From: Oscillospiraceae bacterium
GTDB lineage: Bacteria > Bacillota > Clostridia > Oscillospirales > Ruminococcaceae
NCBI GenBank assembly: GCA_015067025.1
Contig: SVNC01000001.1
Coordinates: forward strand, 310,001-374,000
Direction: 5' to 3'
DNA: 64,000 nucleotides
In this document: positions 1,990-9,214 of the stretch, in pieces
How positions within the stretch are numbered: the first letter of the stretch is position 1
How the letters are laid out: each line of letters starts with the position of its first letter
The notes under the pieces: generated by a model
The model's input: the letters and a program-made list of their open reading frames with translations, nothing else
Databases searched by the model: none
Told to the model about the DNA's origin: nothing
Translations under genes and position numbers: made by a program

Positions 1990-4950
1990 ATGAGAAGTAA
2001 TTTTAAAAAAATTTTGTGTGCTATTCTCGCAATGTCGTTAGTCTTGACTTTAGGAATGTCTTTTACGGCGACAGCAGAGGAAATCGGAGACTTTGTCGTA
2101 AGCGTATATAATGAAGAAAGCGGCTTGCCGACAGGTGAAGCCAATGACATTCTGCAAACATCTGATGGCTATATATGGATAGGAAGTTATGGAGGACTTA
2201 TCAGATACGACGGAAGCGAATTCAAAAATTTCAGCACGCTGAAGCAAATAGGATCATCATCTATCCGATCTATATTTGAAGATAGTAAAGACAGACTCTG
2301 GATAGGTACTAATGATGCGGGAGTTTATTTATATGAGGACGATTGTTTTAAGAAAATAAAAGGAACTGAAGATAATGATTTTCTTTGTGTCAGAGATTTC
2401 TGTGAAAGCGAAGACGGCAGAGTGTTCTGTGCCTCTAACTCGGGACTTGCGGAGATAAAAGGAGATGGCATAGTACCGCTTGGTGTCGAGGTTATAGGTC
2501 ATACCTTGTATAGTTGTGCCGTCGATAAGAACGGGGATCTGTGGAGTGTTTCAGATTCTGCTGTTCATATAATGAATCTTAGTGATTTTAGCGTTGAAAG
2601 CTTGCCATTTGCTGAACTTGATAAATCGCAGGAGCTTAGTGCGTACAGCCTTACTGCAGATAACGACGGTAATATTATAATTGGGACATCGGAAAATACA
2701 ATTGTTAAATATGATGCAGAACGAAAAGCAACATATATATCAACAAACAGTGTAAATACCCATAATAAGATAAGAGTAGGAAAAAACGGGGAAATTCTTG
2801 TATGTGGTCTCAGAGGTTTTGCGGTTGTTGATAGCAGTGGCGAAGTTACGGAATTTGGCGAAAGTGAGAAAGCAAGTTCTGTAAACAGTGCTATATGTGA
2901 TTACGAAGGTAATTATTGGCTTGCTTCGTCATCATACGGTGTTATAAAGTATGTCAGGGGTTGTATTGATTCTCCGAATAACAACGCAGAGGGCTTGTCA
3001 TCAACTGCAATAAACGCTATTTCAAAACAAAACGGATATTATTATGTAGGTCACGATAGTGGTCTTATGGTGTACGATGAAAGCTGGCGGAAGGTGTCGT
3101 GCCCTCTTGAAGAGATGCTTGACGGAGTTAGAATAAGACACATTTTAGCTGACAGTAATGATAAGATATGGCTTGCAACTTATTCAGATAACGCGGTTAT
3201 CTGCTATGATACAGATACAAAAGAAATTACCGTTTATAACGAAGATAACGGACTTATCAGCAATCGTGCGAGAGTTATCTACGAAACTTCAGACAAGATG
3301 ATTGTTGTTGGTACACAGCTTGGTATTTCGTATATCAAAGACGGAAAAGTAACAAAAAGTTTTGGCACTGATGATGGAATTGAAGTACTTCAGATACTTT
3401 CCCTTTGTGAAAGTTCTGATGGCGCTATTTTAGCCGGAAGCGACGGCGGCGGTATATACAAGATAAAAGATGATAAAGTTCTAAACTACTCATTCGAAGA
3501 CGGTTTACAGGAAGGCGTAGTACTCCGTATGATCGCGGATGCTTCAAAAAAGGATGCTTATTTTGTAAGTGCCGGAAGTAATCTTTATTATTTTGAAAAT
3601 GAAAAATTTAGAAAGCTTGACAATCTTGAAAAGGGAGCAGGAAGTATTTTTGATCTTTATGATAAGGACGGAAAGCTGTGGATCTTACAAAATAGCGGCA
3701 TCTTCTCAGTTGATAAAGAAAAGCTGCTTTCCGGAGAATCAGGGTCGGACGTACTTCATGGACTCAGCCACGGCCTGACGGGCTCGTTAAACGCTAATAC
3801 ATGGCATTATGTTGATGATGATGGAAGTGTATACCTTGCTACGAGAAACGGAATAAGCCACTTTGGATTTGCCGGAACAGAAAACGGTATCCCAAAAATA
3901 ATTGTAAACAGTGTGATAGTTGACGAAAAAGAATATCAGCACCCGACATCAATGCAGATTTCATCTGATAGTAAGCGAATAACCGTTGATTTTTCAGTTC
4001 TTTCTTTTACAGATACCGCCGCAATAAACGTTTCCTATAAGCTTGATGGATTTGAAAGTGAAGAAACGATCCTTGAAAATCAGAAAAACGCAAAGGTGAG
4101 TTATACGAATCTTCCGGGAGGATCATATACTTTTGTACTGAAAATTTATGATGCAAGTAATCCTGAAAAAGTCTCAGAACAGCGGATTACCATAGTTAAA
4201 GAGAAAAAGATATATGAATATCCTTTTTTTGTTCCTCTTTTTATAATTCTTGTGATACTTGTCACTGCTCTTGCGGTAATGTTGATTGTTCATCGCAAAT
4301 TGAGGGCAATTGCAAAAAGAGAACGAGAATATAAAGATATAATGGTACAGGGTCTTGAAACACTTGCCCGCACTATAGATGCAAAGGATAAATACACAAA
4401 CGGTCACTCTATAAGAGTTGCAATTTATTCAAGAGAGCTGGCAAGGCGTATGGGTATGAGTGAAAAAGAACAGGAAAAAGTCTATTATATTGCACTTGTT
4501 CACGATATAGGAAAAATAGGTATTCCTGATGCGATATTAAATAAATGTGCAAGACTTACTGATGAAGAATATGAAATTATCAAGACACATCCTATGATAG
4601 GTGGAGAGATACTGAAAAGCTTTACAGCATTAGAGGGTTCGACTGAAGGCGCAAGTTATCATCATGAAAAGTATGATGGCACAGGCTACGGAAAACAACT
4701 TGTCGGCGAGGAAATACCTCTTGTTGCGAGAATAATCGGTGTTGCGGACGCTTATGATGCGATGTCCAGTAACAGATGCTACAGAAATGCACTTTCTTCT
4801 GAAAAAGTAATAGATGAATTAAATAACGGAACGGGAACGCAGTTTGATCCTAAAATAGTTCCTTTTATGCTGGAAATGATAGAGGATGGTACGGCACCTA
4901 TAAAGCCGGATGCAACGCACTATCTGCCTGAATTTCAGAATATTGTGTAA
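1990..4950 (+). CDS. Secreted beta-propeller / Y_Y_Y / HD-GYP receptor
   Basis: A 986-residue single-pass receptor. A signal peptide (about 1-29) precedes two-component-regulator propeller repeats (about 36-640) with recurring IWIGSYGGL/LWIGTNDAG-like blades. A Y_Y_Y-type Ig domain (about 650-725) and a transmembrane segment (about 742-766) follow. The cytoplasmic end is an HD-GYP domain (about 785-965) with HDIGK near residue 838, HPMIGG, and HHEKYDGTGYG near 890-900. HD-GYP proteins hydrolyse cyclic di-GMP, so an extracellular cue is probably converted into a change in that messenger. The classical GYP triad reads GYG here. Propeller/Y_Y_Y sensors in this architecture more often end in a histidine kinase. 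An AGGAG site lies just upstream of the ATG. The gene is monocistronic. Confidence 0.88.
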   Translation: MRSNFKKILCAILAMSLVLTLGMSFTATAEEIGDFVVSVYNEESGLPTGEANDILQTSDGYIWIGSYGGLIRYDGSEFKNFSTLKQIGSSSIRSIFEDSKDRLWIGTNDAGVYLYEDDCFKKIKGTEDNDFLCVRDFCESEDGRVFCASNSGLAEIKGDGIVPLGVEVIGHTLYSCAVDKNGDLWSVSDSAVHIMNLSDFSVESLPFAELDKSQELSAYSLTADNDGNIIIGTSENTIVKYDAERKATYISTNSVNTHNKIRVGKNGEILVCGLRGFAVVDSSGEVTEFGESEKASSVNSAICDYEGNYWLASSSYGVIKYVRGCIDSPNNNAEGLSSTAINAISKQNGYYYVGHDSGLMVYDESWRKVSCPLEEMLDGVRIRHILADSNDKIWLATYSDNAVICYDTDTKEITVYNEDNGLISNRARVIYETSDKMIVVGTQLGISYIKDGKVTKSFGTDDGIEVLQILSLCESSDGAILAGSDGGGIYKIKDDKVLNYSFEDGLQEGVVLRMIADASKKDAYFVSAGSNLYYFENEKFRKLDNLEKGAGSIFDLYDKDGKLWILQNSGIFSVDKEKLLSGESGSDVLHGLSHGLTGSLNANTWHYVDDDGSVYLATRNGISHFGFAGTENGIPKIIVNSVIVDEKEYQHPTSMQISSDSKRITVDFSVLSFTDTAAINVSYKLDGFESEETILENQKNAKVSYTNLPGGSYTFVLKIYDASNPEKVSEQRITIVKEKKIYEYPFFVPLFIILVILVTALAVMLIVHRKLRAIAKREREYKDIMVQGLETLARTIDAKDKYTNGHSIRVAIYSRELARRMGMSEKEQEKVYYIALVHDIGKIGIPDAILNKCARLTDEEYEIIKTHPMIGGEILKSFTALEGSTEGASYHHEKYDGTGYGKQLVGEEIPLVARIIGVADAYDAMSSNRCYRNALSSEKVIDELNNGTGTQFDPKIVPFMLEMIEDGTAPIKPDATHYLPEFQNIV

Positions 4951-5005: not shown

Positions 5006-5056
5006 AATCGGAGCAGATTTATAAAAAATAATTGTATATCGGAAAGGAAAATTAAT

Positions 5057-5839
5057 ATGAAAAAATTAGTTGCACTTACAGCAGTTGCTGCAATTTGTGT
5101 TGCATCCCTTGCAGGATGTTCAGGTGGAGTAAAGCCTAATGAAGTTCACTCCAAGGCTGACCTTGTTGGCAAGACGATTGGTGTTCAGCAGGGTACAACA
5201 GGTGATACAGAGGCTTCTAAGGTTGAAGGGGCTACAATCGACAGATACAAAAAGGGTGCGGATGCTATCCAGGCTTTAAAGCAGGGTAAGGTAGATGCTG
5301 TTGTTATCGACGTTGAGCCTGCAAAGGTGTTTGTTGAAAAGAATACGGATCTTATGATACTTGATGAAACTTTTATAACAGAAGAATACGCTATCGCTAT
5401 CAAGAAGGGATCTGAGCTTACAGCTAAGATCAACACAGCTCTTGAAGAACTTGAAGCTGATGGTACACTCAGCAAGATCGTAAGAAACTGGATTGGCGAT
5501 GAGATTGGTCAGTATCCTTATAAGTCTCCTGAAAATGTTGACAGATCGAACGGTACTCTTGTAATGGCTACAAATGCGGCTTTCCCTCCTTATGAAGCAG
5601 TTGAAGGCGGCAAGGTGGTTGGTATTGACCCTGACATTATGCAAGCTGTATGCGATAAGCTTGGTTATGAGCTCAAGATTGAAGATATGGACTTTGATGC
5701 TATCATTTCTGCAGTAAACTCAGGTAAGGCTGACGTAGGTGTTGCAGGTATGTCTGTGACAGAAGATCGTCTTAAGAACGTTGACTTCTCCAACTCTTAC
5801 ACCAAGGCAAATCAGGTTATCGTTGTAAGAAAGAAGTAA
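5057..5839 (+). CDS. Polar amino-acid-binding lipoprotein, circularly permuted
   Basis: A 260-residue solute-binding lipoprotein with signal peptide and lipobox LAGC (Cys21). The two halves of the SBP_bac_3 fold are in reverse order. Residues 30-147 (ADLVGKTIGVQQGTTGD through LSKIVRNWIG) match the usual second half. Residues 166-258 (LVMATNAAFPPYE through NVDFSNSYTKANQVIVVRK) match the usual first half. Both ligand anchors of the GlnH family are kept: Arg238 in VTEDRLK and Asp85 in VVIDVEP. It should deliver a polar amino acid to the permease and ATPase encoded next. The ATG at 5057 follows a GGAAAGGA site; an upstream in-frame start at 4973 would overlap the promoter. A hairpin after the stop may raise its expression relative to the transporter. 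Confidence 0.92.
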   Translation: MKKLVALTAVAAICVASLAGCSGGVKPNEVHSKADLVGKTIGVQQGTTGDTEASKVEGATIDRYKKGADAIQALKQGKVDAVVIDVEPAKVFVEKNTDLMILDETFITEEYAIAIKKGSELTAKINTALEELEADGTLSKIVRNWIGDEIGQYPYKSPENVDRSNGTLVMATNAAFPPYEAVEGGKVVGIDPDIMQAVCDKLGYELKIEDMDFDAIISAVNSGKADVGVAGMSVTEDRLKNVDFSNSYTKANQVIVVRKK

Positions 5840-5937: not shown

Positions 5938-6651
5938 ATGGACGGCATTGTACAGTGGTTTACTGACTTCGGCGAAAAGTTTTATGATAATTTTATAAAG
6001 GATGCCCGCTGGCAGTACTTGACCGATGGTCTGAAAAACACGCTTATCATCACTTTTCTGTCGATAATTATTGGATTAATTTTAGGTTTTGTTATTGCAA
6101 TTATCAGATCGACACACGATAAAACAGGAAAGCTTAAAATTCTTAATTTCTTCGCGAAAATATATCTGACTATAATCAGAGGTACGCCTGTAGTAGTTCA
6201 GCTGCTTATTATCTATTTCGTAATCTTTGGCTCTTTTGACATAGATAAGCTGATTGTAGCGGTAATAGCTTTCGGTCTTAATTCAGCCGCATATGTTGCT
6301 GAAATTGTCCGTTCGGGTATAATGTCCATTGATAACGGTCAGTTTGAAGCAGGATCCAGTTTAGGTCTTGGATATATGCAGACTATGGTCTACATTGTAC
6401 TTCCTCAGGCACTAAAGAATGTTCTTCCTGCACTTGCAAATGAATTTATCGTATTACTTAAGGAAACCTCTGTATCAGGCTATATCGCTATATCTGACCT
6501 TACAAAAGGCGGCGATATCATAAGAAGTCTTACTTATGAAGCATTCCTGCCTCTTATTGCGGTAGCGGTTATTTATCTTGTAATGGTAATGTTCCTGTCA
6601 TTCCTCGTAACAAAGCTCGAAAGGAGACTTGCAAAAAATGATAAACGTTAA
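5938..6651 (+). CDS. Polar amino-acid ABC transporter permease
   Basis: A 237-residue inner-membrane permease of the HisM/GlnP family. It has several hydrophobic segments (about 35-55, 82-105, 195-222). The cytoplasmic coupling loop near residues 130-150 reads [24 protein letters not shown], the EAA motif that contacts the ATPase. The early [13 protein letters not shown] segment is also characteristic. It sits between the binding-protein gene and the ATPase gene and overlaps the latter by 14 bases, so the three make one importer. GAAGGGAAAA lies upstream of the ATG. Confidence 0.93.
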
Positions 6652-7363
6652 TAATTTAACCAAGGACTTTAATGAGCTTCATGTTTTAAAGAATATAACA
6701 GAAACTATAGAGAAGGGCGAAAAGGTTGTAATAGTCGGCCCTTCCGGTTCCGGTAAGAGTACTTTCCTCAGATGTCTTAATCTTATGGAAAGACCCACTT
6801 CCGGCGAAATTTTTGTTGATGGTACCGATATCACAAGACTTCATGAAAAGGAAGTAAATTTTATCAGAAGAAGAATGGGAATGGTGTTTCAGCACTTTAA
6901 TTTGTTCCCTCATCTTACAATTAAGAAAAATATAACTCTTGCTCCTGTAAAATTAAAGCTGATGACTGAAGCACAGGCTGATAAGCGTGCTGAAGAGTTA
7001 CTTGCAAAGGTTGGCCTTTCCGATAAGGCAAATCAGTATCCAAATCAACTTTCAGGCGGACAGAAACAGAGAATAGCTATCGCTCGTTCTCTTGCAATGA
7101 ATCCTGAAATAATGCTCTTTGATGAGCCTACTTCTGCTCTTGACCCTGAAATGGTCGGCGAAGTACTTAATCTTATGAAAGAACTTGCAGATGATGGTAT
7201 GACAATGATTGTCGTAACACACGAAATGGGATTTGCGAGAGAGGTTGCTTCTCGTGTTATGTTTATGGATGAGGGCATGATCGTTGAGCAGAATATCCCG
7301 GCGGAGTTCTTTGCTAATCCTAAAAGTCCAAGACTTAAAGAATTCTTATCAAAGGTGCTGTAA
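6638..7363 (+). CDS. Polar amino-acid ABC transporter ATP-binding protein
   Basis: A 241-residue ATPase of the GlnQ/HisP group. Walker A is GPSGSGKST, the Q-loop is [10 protein letters not shown], the signature is LSGGQKQR, Walker B is [12 protein letters not shown], and the switch histidine is in VVTHEMGFA. It energises the permease encoded upstream. The ATG at 6638 is chosen because AAGGAG at 6621-6626 is 11 bases upstream; the TTG at 6629 would be only two bases from it. The stop codon overlaps the next ATG (TAATG), so the GNAT gene that follows is translationally coupled. Confidence 0.95.
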
Positions 7364-7791
7364 TGGAGCTTAAAACAGTTTGCTTTAAAGGGAACGAAGA
7401 CAAGCTTTTTAAAATGGCAGGAAAGATAAGAGAAGATATATTTCTTCTTGAGCAGGGCTTCAGCGTTGAATACGATGATATTGATAAAGAGGCTTATCAC
7501 GTTATTGTGTTTGACGGAGAAAAGCCGATAGCCACTTCAAGATTTTATGGAGCAGATAACCCTGTCCATATAGGCAGGGTAGCTGTTATAAAGGAATATC
7601 GTAATAAAGGCATAGGAGTATACCTGATGAAGCAGACAGAAACCTTTGCAAAGGAAAAGGGTGCTTTGTCGGTGACTCTTGGTGCTCAGATAAGAGCGAG
7701 TACCTTTTACAGAAAATGTGGCTACAAAGAATATGGAGAAGAGTATATGGATGAGTTCTGTCCTCATATAAATATGCTGAAAACATTATAA
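7363..7791 (+). CDS. GNAT family N-acetyltransferase, coupled to the ABC operon
   Basis: A 142-residue GNAT protein. The acetyl-CoA loop is visible as VAVIKEYRNKGIGVYLMKQTE (Q/R-x-x-G-x-G type), followed by GAQIRASTFYRKCGYKEYGEEYMDEF, a C-terminus typical of the ElaA/YjcF-like branch. The substrate is unknown. The ATG shares one base with the ATPase stop codon, so it is co-translated with the amino-acid importer. That placement suggests a link to the imported compound, but this is inference from position. Confidence 0.88.
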   Translation: MELKTVCFKGNEDKLFKMAGKIREDIFLLEQGFSVEYDDIDKEAYHVIVFDGEKPIATSRFYGADNPVHIGRVAVIKEYRNKGIGVYLMKQTETFAKEKGALSVTLGAQIRASTFYRKCGYKEYGEEYMDEFCPHINMLKTL

Positions 7792-7804
7792 TAAAGGAAT
7801 AGTT

Positions 7805-9214
7805 ATGCTAGAAACAATAAATGGAATCGTGGCGTCTATAAATGACTTTTTTTACTCCTATCTGCTGATTATAGTGTTAGTTGCAGGAGGTCTTATTTTT
7901 ACCGTTTTAACACGCTTTGCACCCTTCAGACTTTTTAAGGAGCAGATAAAAGCGGTTTTTGAAAAACCTAAAGATAAGAATGGTGTTTCCTCTTTCCAGG
8001 CGTTGATGGTTTCGACAGCGTCCAGAGTAGGTACCGGTAATATCATAGGCGTGTCTACAGCACTTTGTATGGGCGGCTTTGGCTCTGTATTCTGGATGTG
8101 GGTAATCGCTATAGTCGGAAGTGCATCTGCACTTATCGAAAGCACTCTTGCACAGATATATAAGAAAAGAGGACCTGATGGTAGCTATGGCGGACCTGCG
8201 TACTACATTGAAACGGCCCTTAAATGCAGACCGTTAGCTATCGTGTTTTCAGTACTTTTGATACTTACTTACGGCGTAGGTTTCAATATGCTTGCATCCT
8301 TCAATTTACAGTCAACATTCTCATCATACGGCTTTTACGACGCATCAGTTACTCCTTGGATAATCGGACTTGTTGTAGCTGCTGTCGTGTGCTATTGCCT
8401 TATAGGTGGAGGAAAAAGAATTGAAAAGGTAACAAGCGTATTAGTTCCTATAATGGGACTTGCATACATGTTGATTTCACTTGTTATTGTTTTTATGAAC
8501 ATTTCGGCATTACCGAGTGTTATTGCTCAGATATTCGGGCAGGCTTCTGATTTTGAAGCTATATTTGGCGGCTTTACAGGCTCATGTGTAATGTATGGTA
8601 TAAAGCGTGGACTATTCAGTAATGAAGCGGGTGTTGGTTCTGCACCTAACGCGTCTGCATCTGCTGATGTTCAGCATCCTGTAAAGCAGGGTCTTGTTCA
8701 AGTGCTTTCTGTATTTATTGATACAATACTTATCTGTAGTGCAACGGCATTTATGTGCATGTGTTCAGGTATAGAGCCTTCTGCTGAACTTTCAGGTGCG
8801 GCATATATTCAGCAGTCTCTCAGAGTAACGCTTGGAGAATTCGGACCGATATTTATTACGGTTGCAATGGTGCTTTTCGCATTTACTACATTACTTGGAA
8901 ATCTTTATTATGTAGATAAGGGAATTGCTCATATTATGGGTCGTGTACCCGGCAAAAGGTTTATGCTTGTCGTTCATATCGTGTTCTCTGTACTTATTTT
9001 AATTGGTGCAGGACTTAGTGCTGATCTGCTTTGGAATATATCGGACATACTTATGGGAGGTATGACTATAATTAATATTCCTGTAATTCTTATTCTTTCG
9101 AAGTATGCACTACGTGCGTTGAAGGATTATGAAAAGCAGAGAAAAGAGGGTAAAACGCCCATTTTCCATGCAAAGAATATTGACCTGCCACATAAGGTAG
9201 ACTACTGGGATTGA
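7805..9214 (+). CDS. Sodium:alanine/glycine symporter, AgcS/AlsT family
   Basis: A 469-residue polytopic membrane protein of the amino acid carrier (AGCS) family. It has about ten or eleven hydrophobic segments. The signature region TASRVGTGNIIGVSTAL lies near residue 75, and GLFSNEAGVGSAPNASASA near residue 270; both are strongly conserved and line the substrate/sodium site. It should import alanine or glycine with sodium. It begins 13 bases after the GNAT gene with AAAGGA ahead of the ATG, so it is probably the last gene of the amino-acid-uptake operon. A terminator follows. Confidence 0.93.
   Translation: MLETINGIVASINDFFYSYLLIIVLVAGGLIFTVLTRFAPFRLFKEQIKAVFEKPKDKNGVSSFQALMVSTASRVGTGNIIGVSTALCMGGFGSVFWMWVIAIVGSASALIESTLAQIYKKRGPDGSYGGPAYYIETALKCRPLAIVFSVLLILTYGVGFNMLASFNLQSTFSSYGFYDASVTPWIIGLVVAAVVCYCLIGGGKRIEKVTSVLVPIMGLAYMLISLVIVFMNISALPSVIAQIFGQASDFEAIFGGFTGSCVMYGIKRGLFSNEAGVGSAPNASASADVQHPVKQGLVQVLSVFIDTILICSATAFMCMCSGIEPSAELSGAAYIQQSLRVTLGEFGPIFITVAMVLFAFTTLLGNLYYVDKGIAHIMGRVPGKRFMLVVHIVFSVLILIGAGLSADLLWNISDILMGGMTIINIPVILILSKYALRALKDYEKQRKEGKTPIFHAKNIDLPHKVDYWD

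Follow-up and report, generated by a model that had tools for sequence, protein, structure and literature searches.

The gene at positions 5057-5839 of the window, the 64,000-nucleotide stretch of DNA analysed here, raises two questions: whether the two halves of the binding protein that it encodes have really exchanged places along the chain, and how often such an exchange has occurred among its relatives. A reading made from the letters alone (the sequence-only reading) had described reversed halves within one intact lipoprotein. The open reading frame lies on the plus strand, is intact and encodes 260 amino acids from an ATG at 5057 to a stop codon ending at 5839, while the ORF list gives an upstream TTG as its start. 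The fold was split at its hinges into three modules, D1N, D2 and D1C, and a profile of each was built from 54 standard proteins plus the re-ordered 5057-5839 protein. With D1N-D2-D1C as the standard order, D2-D1C-D1N (cut at hinge 1) was named type A and D1C-D1N-D2 (cut at hinge 2) type B. The features of the locus are the following.

5041..5049, + strand: putative ribosome-binding stretch GGAAAGGAA, purine-rich, read from the sequence
5057..5839, + strand: circularly permuted amino-acid-binding lipoprotein gene, 260 aa, order D2-D1C-D1N (profiles and structure model)
5057..5119, + strand: lipoprotein signal peptide with lipobox LAGC; Cys21, probably lipid-bearing, is present in 12 of 12 aligned sequences
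5144..5368, + strand: module D2, residues 30-104, lobe 2, mid-chain in standard proteins (module profile, 6gpm superposition)
5309..5311, + strand: Asp85, lobe 2, putative residue for the ligand amino group (conservation)
5351..5404, + strand: hinge strand 2, residues 99-116, a modelled strand and the presumed sole covalent crossing between the lobes
5378..5503, + strand: module D1C, residues 108-149, C-terminus in standard proteins (module profile)
5498..5551, + strand: new linker, residues 148-165, from the old C-terminus to the old N-terminus (alignments)
5552..5830, + strand: module D1N, residues 166-258, N-terminus in standard proteins (module profile, 6gpc superposition)
5768..5770, + strand: Arg238, lobe 1, putative residue for the ligand carboxylate (conservation)
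5801..5830, + strand: hinge strand 1, residues 249-258, here the C-terminal chain end (modelled strand)
5938..6651, + strand: cognate permease of the polar amino acid type (PF00528, E 2.5e-21; TIGR01726 over its cut-off)
6638..7363, + strand, start as read: cognate GlnQ-like ATPase (PF00005, E 1.6e-41)

The chain runs from lobe 2 (D2) through D1C and a new linker of about 18 residues to D1N. Both the sequence and the module profiles gave this order, in contrast to the standard D1N-D2-D1C. The Pfam family SBP_bac_3 (PF00497) matched the protein well above its threshold (124.9 bits against a cut-off of 26.4, E 2.3e-36), and the match was split in two and reversed, with profile positions 1-92 (of 132) falling on residues 168-259. 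Similarly, positions 21-118 of the GlnH-type model TIGR01096 fell on residues 163-259 and positions 139-264 of a cystine-binding model on residues 28-150, while PDB 4zv1 was matched over its residues 9-104 by 165-259 of the query and over 108-233 by 29-148. The reversal was thus found by Pfam, by the GlnH-type models and by 4zv1, and a full-chain alignment to SBP_bac_3 without swapping was not obtained, since the two halves could be aligned only separately and in exchanged order. The protein does not have the canonical order of the family and is filed as a circular permutant. Orthologues at 94, 89, 87, 74, 72 and 69% identity had the same order, which together with the E-values excludes a chance origin of the reversed match. 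An alignment of 12 sequences also placed the linker at residues 148-165, as the sequence-only reading had it. No leftover half-gene or frameshift was seen in the flanks of the gene, which are short intergenic stretches of 106 bases on the side of the upstream ORF and 98 on that of the permease. The genome search (E ≤0.001) found two SBP_bac_3 proteins in all, the second of which (L027) had the standard order and no permease or ATPase match within its fetched stretch. Tandem arrays of standard units can mimic a permutation, as was true for the permease-fused standard arrays L004, L087, L088 and L128; the 5057-5839 protein has one unit. Among these arrays, L004 (554-3535), which equals L085, carries three closely similar standard domains in a row followed by the permease in 993 aa.

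A structure prediction had been suggested as a check, and the AlphaFold model (mean pLDDT 90.8, pTM 0.82, confidence above 90 in every ten-residue block from residue 31 onward) had the reversed order and not the ordinary order of strands. It was compared to GlnH/HisJ-like folds via the listed PDB matches. Residues 134-260 of PDB 4ymx superposed on model residues 26-148 (2.0 Å, 123 residues), residues 6-98 of 6gpc on 163-254 (rmsd 2.4 Å, 92 residues) and 6gpm on 25-108 (rmsd 2.2 Å), so that each half of the model, N-terminal or C-terminal, corresponds to the opposite half of ordinary amino-acid-binding proteins. None of the 50 Foldseek matches listed gave a good full-length superposition (query TM-score ≤0.50), and the top one was 6h30, a tandem GlnPQ pair. 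With the exception of 6h30, no permuted solved relative was recognisable by match range among the best 60 of 93 and the best 60 of 85 PDB matches. The nearest solved chains were AncQR (4zv1) and TmArgBP (6svf).

The sequence-only reading had further named a cognate permease and ATPase in order, and both genes follow at 5938..6651 and 6638..7363 and belong to the matching families. The GlnQ model PRK09493 matched the ATPase with E 4.3e-97, under the model's own equivalog cut-off. A permease and an ATPase of matching type thus adjoin the binding-protein gene, as in a polar amino acid ABC importer. Arg238 and Asp85, which had been singled out as ligand-contact positions, were correctly chosen: both were invariant in the 12 aligned sequences, the 5057-5839 protein included. 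We take Arg238 to be the counterpart of GlnBP Arg75, which holds the carboxylate, and Asp85 that of GlnBP Asp157, which holds the amino group. The pocket Arg was found in 66 of 68 type A proteins (being absent from two), 31 of 31 type B and 55 of 55 standard proteins; the pocket Asp was present in 68/68 type A and 31/31 type B proteins, and the 55 standard proteins had Asp (40) or Glu (15) at this position. Purifying selection was strong, with dN 0.035, dS 0.82 and dN/dS of about 0.04 between the 5057-5839 gene and L001. Specifically, D1N carried zero amino-acid changes relative to L001, yet 43% of its synonymous sites differed. The protein would work as a Venus flytrap that closes on an alpha-amino acid between Arg238 of lobe 1 and Asp85 of lobe 2 and docks on the permease.

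The suspicion that permuted relatives exist elsewhere in Clostridia was well founded, as orthologues of the same order were found. Module profiles distinguished, with copies removed, 73 distinct type A proteins including the 5057-5839 protein (68 + 5), 40 distinct type B proteins (31 + 9) and 55 distinct proteins of standard order, counts that are not frequencies because the loci were picked by similarity to the 5057-5839 protein. In addition, there were ten permease-fused arrays with two or four type A units, the incomplete arrays L041 and L110 and two further permuted arrays, L178 and L179. The surveys, in which the best few candidates per genome were scored, found a single-unit type A gene in 27 of 394 genomes of the order, the 5057-5839 genome included (E ≤8.2e-73, all module-checked). 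Across 391 genomes of the class, at E ≤1e-45, 24 had a type A match (24/24 module-checked), 11 a type B match range (10 module-checked) and six standard halves only, while a full-length match to the type B profile was present in 28 of 291 class genomes (20 module-checked). All 21 non-clostridial loci fetched (L005-L009, L011-L026) were standard, and the 20 plasmid matches listed (1077 records) all came in two pieces, like standard proteins. The only permuted genes outside the class in 249 phylum-wide genomes (E ≤1e-45) were those of G868 (type A) and G922 (a permuted array); these searches used window-like queries, which distant cases would escape. The arrays L046, L039, L040, L042, L123-L127, L178 and L179 have two or four units in permuted register from the N-terminus and are fused to the permease; their units might pair either in the permuted way or, with adjoining units, in the standard way.

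The orders were scattered both in a quick binding-protein tree of 145 re-ordered domains, the only tree to include the permuted arrays, and in a careful tree of 86 rows, from which the long-branch type A proteins L109, L112 (whose D1C profile match was weak) and L122 were left out. The careful tree required six changes for type A, of which five were forced by starred branches, three for type B, all forced, and six for standard order, these counts being blind to gain versus loss and not strictly separating B to A from A to B. Type A, type B and standard order were each recovered as one clade in 0 of 200 bootstrap trees (careful tree). The AU test rejected a single clade of all type A (p 1.5e-9) and of all type B (p 2.7e-4), and still rejected that of type A after removal of the L111 group (p 4e-8) and of L086 as well (p 3e-5), while rejection was marginal for the window-like group plus L070 (p 0.047). 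The tree of the permease, a separate gene, had 121 rows and required 12 changes for type A (five forced), five for type B (four forced) and 11 for standard order (six forced). In both careful trees type A L070 and standard L129 were sisters (100/99); the two proteins are about 72% identical after re-ordering and both lie ahead of a permease and an ATPase. The sister of L086 (type A) was standard L057 in the binding-protein tree (100/91) and standard L134 in the permease tree (100/85), and the L111 group (type A) was flanked by type B rows on both sides in the permease tree. The type B proteins L089-L091 were located among standard rows in the binding-protein tree, and their permeases lay apart from one another among standard and a few type A rows. 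The trees reject a single origin of type A or of type B and support several changes of circular order in the class. Beyond what the sequence-only reading had described, permutation seems to have taken place on several occasions and in two versions.

Linkers and break positions were unlike between groups. The form PYxSPEGxxRSN, or a variant of it, was present in many window-like proteins and in L070, and the window-like chains ended 1-4 residues past the D1N match. This common linker suggests that the window-like group, L070 included, may be one event; because L070 carries it, its standard sister L129 may represent a return to the old order. Likewise, the standard proteins L129 and L044 among the window-like type A proteins may be reversions or recombinants. 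The C-terminus of L086, SKIQSIDDLDPYYLPAE, is a remnant of the D2 start. The L111 group comprised ten type A proteins (L111 and L113-L121, eight of them in the careful tree) and adjoined the main type B group, with the type B rows L094 and L095 outside both. All ten had a C-terminal segment like DDTTFDDCxTxxDVxxIL, which is the D1N-to-D2 stretch of their type B kin. The simplest reading is that the L111 group derives from a type B protein that was cut a second time, although two changes from type A to type B could also account for the pattern. In L117 (1926-3702, minus strand) two binding-protein genes stand next to each other ahead of one permease, type B first and type A immediately after it, possibly a snapshot of a second permutation. 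From linkers, cuts and tree positions we infer at least five separate changes and probably seven, the putative events being window-like A, L038-like A, the L111 group, L086, array A, large B and L089-like B. It is likely, in our judgement, that the binding protein of this Clostridia importer repeatedly switches among all three orders, with at least five changes, probably seven or more, always cut beside a hinge strand, including the re-cutting of a permuted protein and probable returns to the standard order.

How could such changes occur and be tolerated? In the 5057-5839 protein each lobe is contiguous in the chain, hinge strand 1 forms the chain end, hinge strand 2 alone would join the lobes and the lipid anchor would lead into lobe 2 at the hinge. 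Types A and B are alike in having contiguous lobes and one covalent hinge crossing left. New termini beside the hinge strands should least disturb the fold, and the order changes may be tolerated because the cuts sit in loops beside the hinge. They could arise when binding-protein units are fused or duplicated in tandem, in frame, and the outer half-units are then lost. Tandem units, standard as well as permuted and fused to the permease, indicate that neighbouring units do arise in this gene; since every tandem pair has a D2-D1C-D1N stretch in its interior, type A would be left once the outer halves were lost. In GlnPQ-like tandem domains (6h30), which are fused to the permease, this stretch spans neighbouring units, and such an array is a plausible intermediate toward permutation. 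GlnPQ-like units are standard whereas the single unit at 5057-5839 is permuted, and there are permuted arrays too (L039, L040, L042, L046). Tandem arrays aside, the genes found included no intermediate of a form like D2-D1C-D1N-D2-D1C.

We regard it as very probable that the gene encodes a working, permuted solute-binding lipoprotein of a polar amino acid ABC importer and that the order changed repeatedly in the class. An unlikely alternative is that types A and B each go back to a single ancient permutation inherited vertically, and that the scatter is due to errors in the trees, to gene transfer or to recombination of permuted with standard paralogues. It would agree with the linker form common to many window-like type A proteins across the class and with the marginal rejection of the window-like clade; moreover, the trees were built on about 230 columns, and gene conversion between paralogues could carry sequence between orders. 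In contrast, the AU test and the bootstraps speak against one A clade and one B clade, the permease tree has similar nestings (L070/L129, L086/L134, the L111 group amid type B), and linkers and break positions vary by group. Among the matches listed, all three modules of L086 scored best with standard proteins, and all three modules of L111 scored higher with type B than with standard proteins. Repeated change of order remains the preferred reading.

The scores of single modules also bear on whether half-genes from two different binding proteins were fused, in which case the halves would be of unlike origin. Joining a C-terminal to an N-terminal half would give the permuted order as well, but all three modules of the 5057-5839 protein had their highest scores with type A orthologues, followed by standard proteins (among the matches listed), and the pocket residues are conserved jointly in the two lobes; we hold such a fusion to be very improbable. 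For a pseudogene, an assembly error or a chimera nothing speaks except the odd order, and we give it practically no weight: orthologues in separate genomes share the order, dN/dS is low, the fold is confident, and types A and B occur in one-contig genomes (L179 of G506, L168 of G604). A role of the permuted protein mainly in sensing, or in binding for a purpose other than transport, might be suggested by the receptor gene upstream. This is improbable considering that, in the fetched stretches, the permease lies 3′ of the type A gene in 64 of 68 cases, fused to it in four (L071, L072, L157, L158), and 3′ of the type B gene in 31 of 31, the ATPase usually being next. For the type A loci L043, L050, L109 and L112 no permease was found within the fetched stretch.

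GlnH/HisJ/ArtJ-type proteins (SBP_bac_3, cluster F) have the same sequence family, lobe folds, pocket residues and permease and ATPase partners, and the 5057-5839 protein differs from them in chain order, in the anchor leading into lobe 2 and in having a single hinge crossing where those have two. Other families are already known to contain natural permuted binding proteins, as the available parts of PMC4990184 and PMC2395249 document, which justifies the doubt about novelty that the sequence-only reading had voiced. According to the accessible text of PMC4990184, TpMglB-2 of Treponema pallidum ('Type Ic / cluster Bc') is a natural, permuted binding protein that has a lipid anchor, belongs to an ABC importer, binds glucose, changes conformation and has relatives in Gram-positives, and its permutation was proposed to be an adaptation to membrane anchoring. 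The 5057-5839 protein resembles it as a permuted lipoprotein beside ABC importer genes. Unlike TpMglB-2, which has a type I fold and belongs to a sugar family, it matches SBP_bac_3 and other type II families only, and its best structural matches are amino-acid-binding proteins, consistent with a class other than that of TpMglB-2. Going by the same partial source, TpMglB-2 gains a fourth lobe crossing while the 5057-5839 protein loses one, and that part of PMC4990184 contains no report of repeated permutation for TpMglB-2.

Permutation relations among the glycine-betaine-binding proteins 2b4l, 1r9l and 1sw1 are recorded in the portion of PMC2395249 available (CPSARST), so that OpuAC/ProX, like the 5057-5839 protein, would exemplify natural circular permutation among type II binding proteins. 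OpuAC gave the longest match in sequence order among the 50 listed (198-200 residues, rmsd 4.4-5.0 Å), so that its order may be type A, but ordinary binding proteins and LysR domains also reached 154-178 residues (2.9-6.5 Å), so that such a match is no proof of a shared order. OpuAC/ProX differ from the 5057-5839 protein in ligand and share 15-18% identity with it, and the OpuAC family had no Pfam match in it at E ≤0.01. We read their permutation as an old divergence, as opposed to the switch among close orthologues described here.

DNA methyltransferases are an enzyme family in which one fold recurrently occurs in several cyclic orders, and we know of no comparison of them at one operon position. 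They are among the natural permutations named in the available part of PMC2395249. Permutation is not mentioned in the part of PMC2861598 that could be consulted. Our literature search, which covered few subscription papers, found no description of permuted SBP_bac_3 proteins and no report of repeated changes among all three orders at a single operon position.

Natural circular permutations usually relate distant relatives. Close natural pairs such as L070/L129 let the origin of a permutation, its folding cost and its effects on hinge motion and docking be tested. If the repeated switching is true, it provides a natural series of close orthologues with different topology, and circular permutation would be an ordinary, perhaps reversible, mode of evolution in this Clostridia importer. 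For annotation, the module order of 'transporter substrate-binding domain' proteins should not be assumed. The membrane-anchoring idea put forward for TpMglB-2 in the accessible part of PMC4990184 also becomes testable by comparison.

Some further genes surround the importer. At 4-1188 the window encodes an F420-0:gamma-glutamyl ligase family protein (PF01996, E 6.5e-58). The importer is immediately preceded, at 1990-4950, by a 986-aa receptor with a two-component regulator propeller, a Y_Y_Y domain and an HD (HD-GYP-like) output, and a propeller-HD receptor is likewise located upstream of the importer in L001 (911-3877). The importer is followed at 7363-9214 by a GNAT acetyltransferase and a sodium:alanine symporter, and in L001 a similar symporter-sized ORF comes next at 6750-8159. 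As the symporter position is kept in L001, the importer-symporter block may be an amino acid uptake region.
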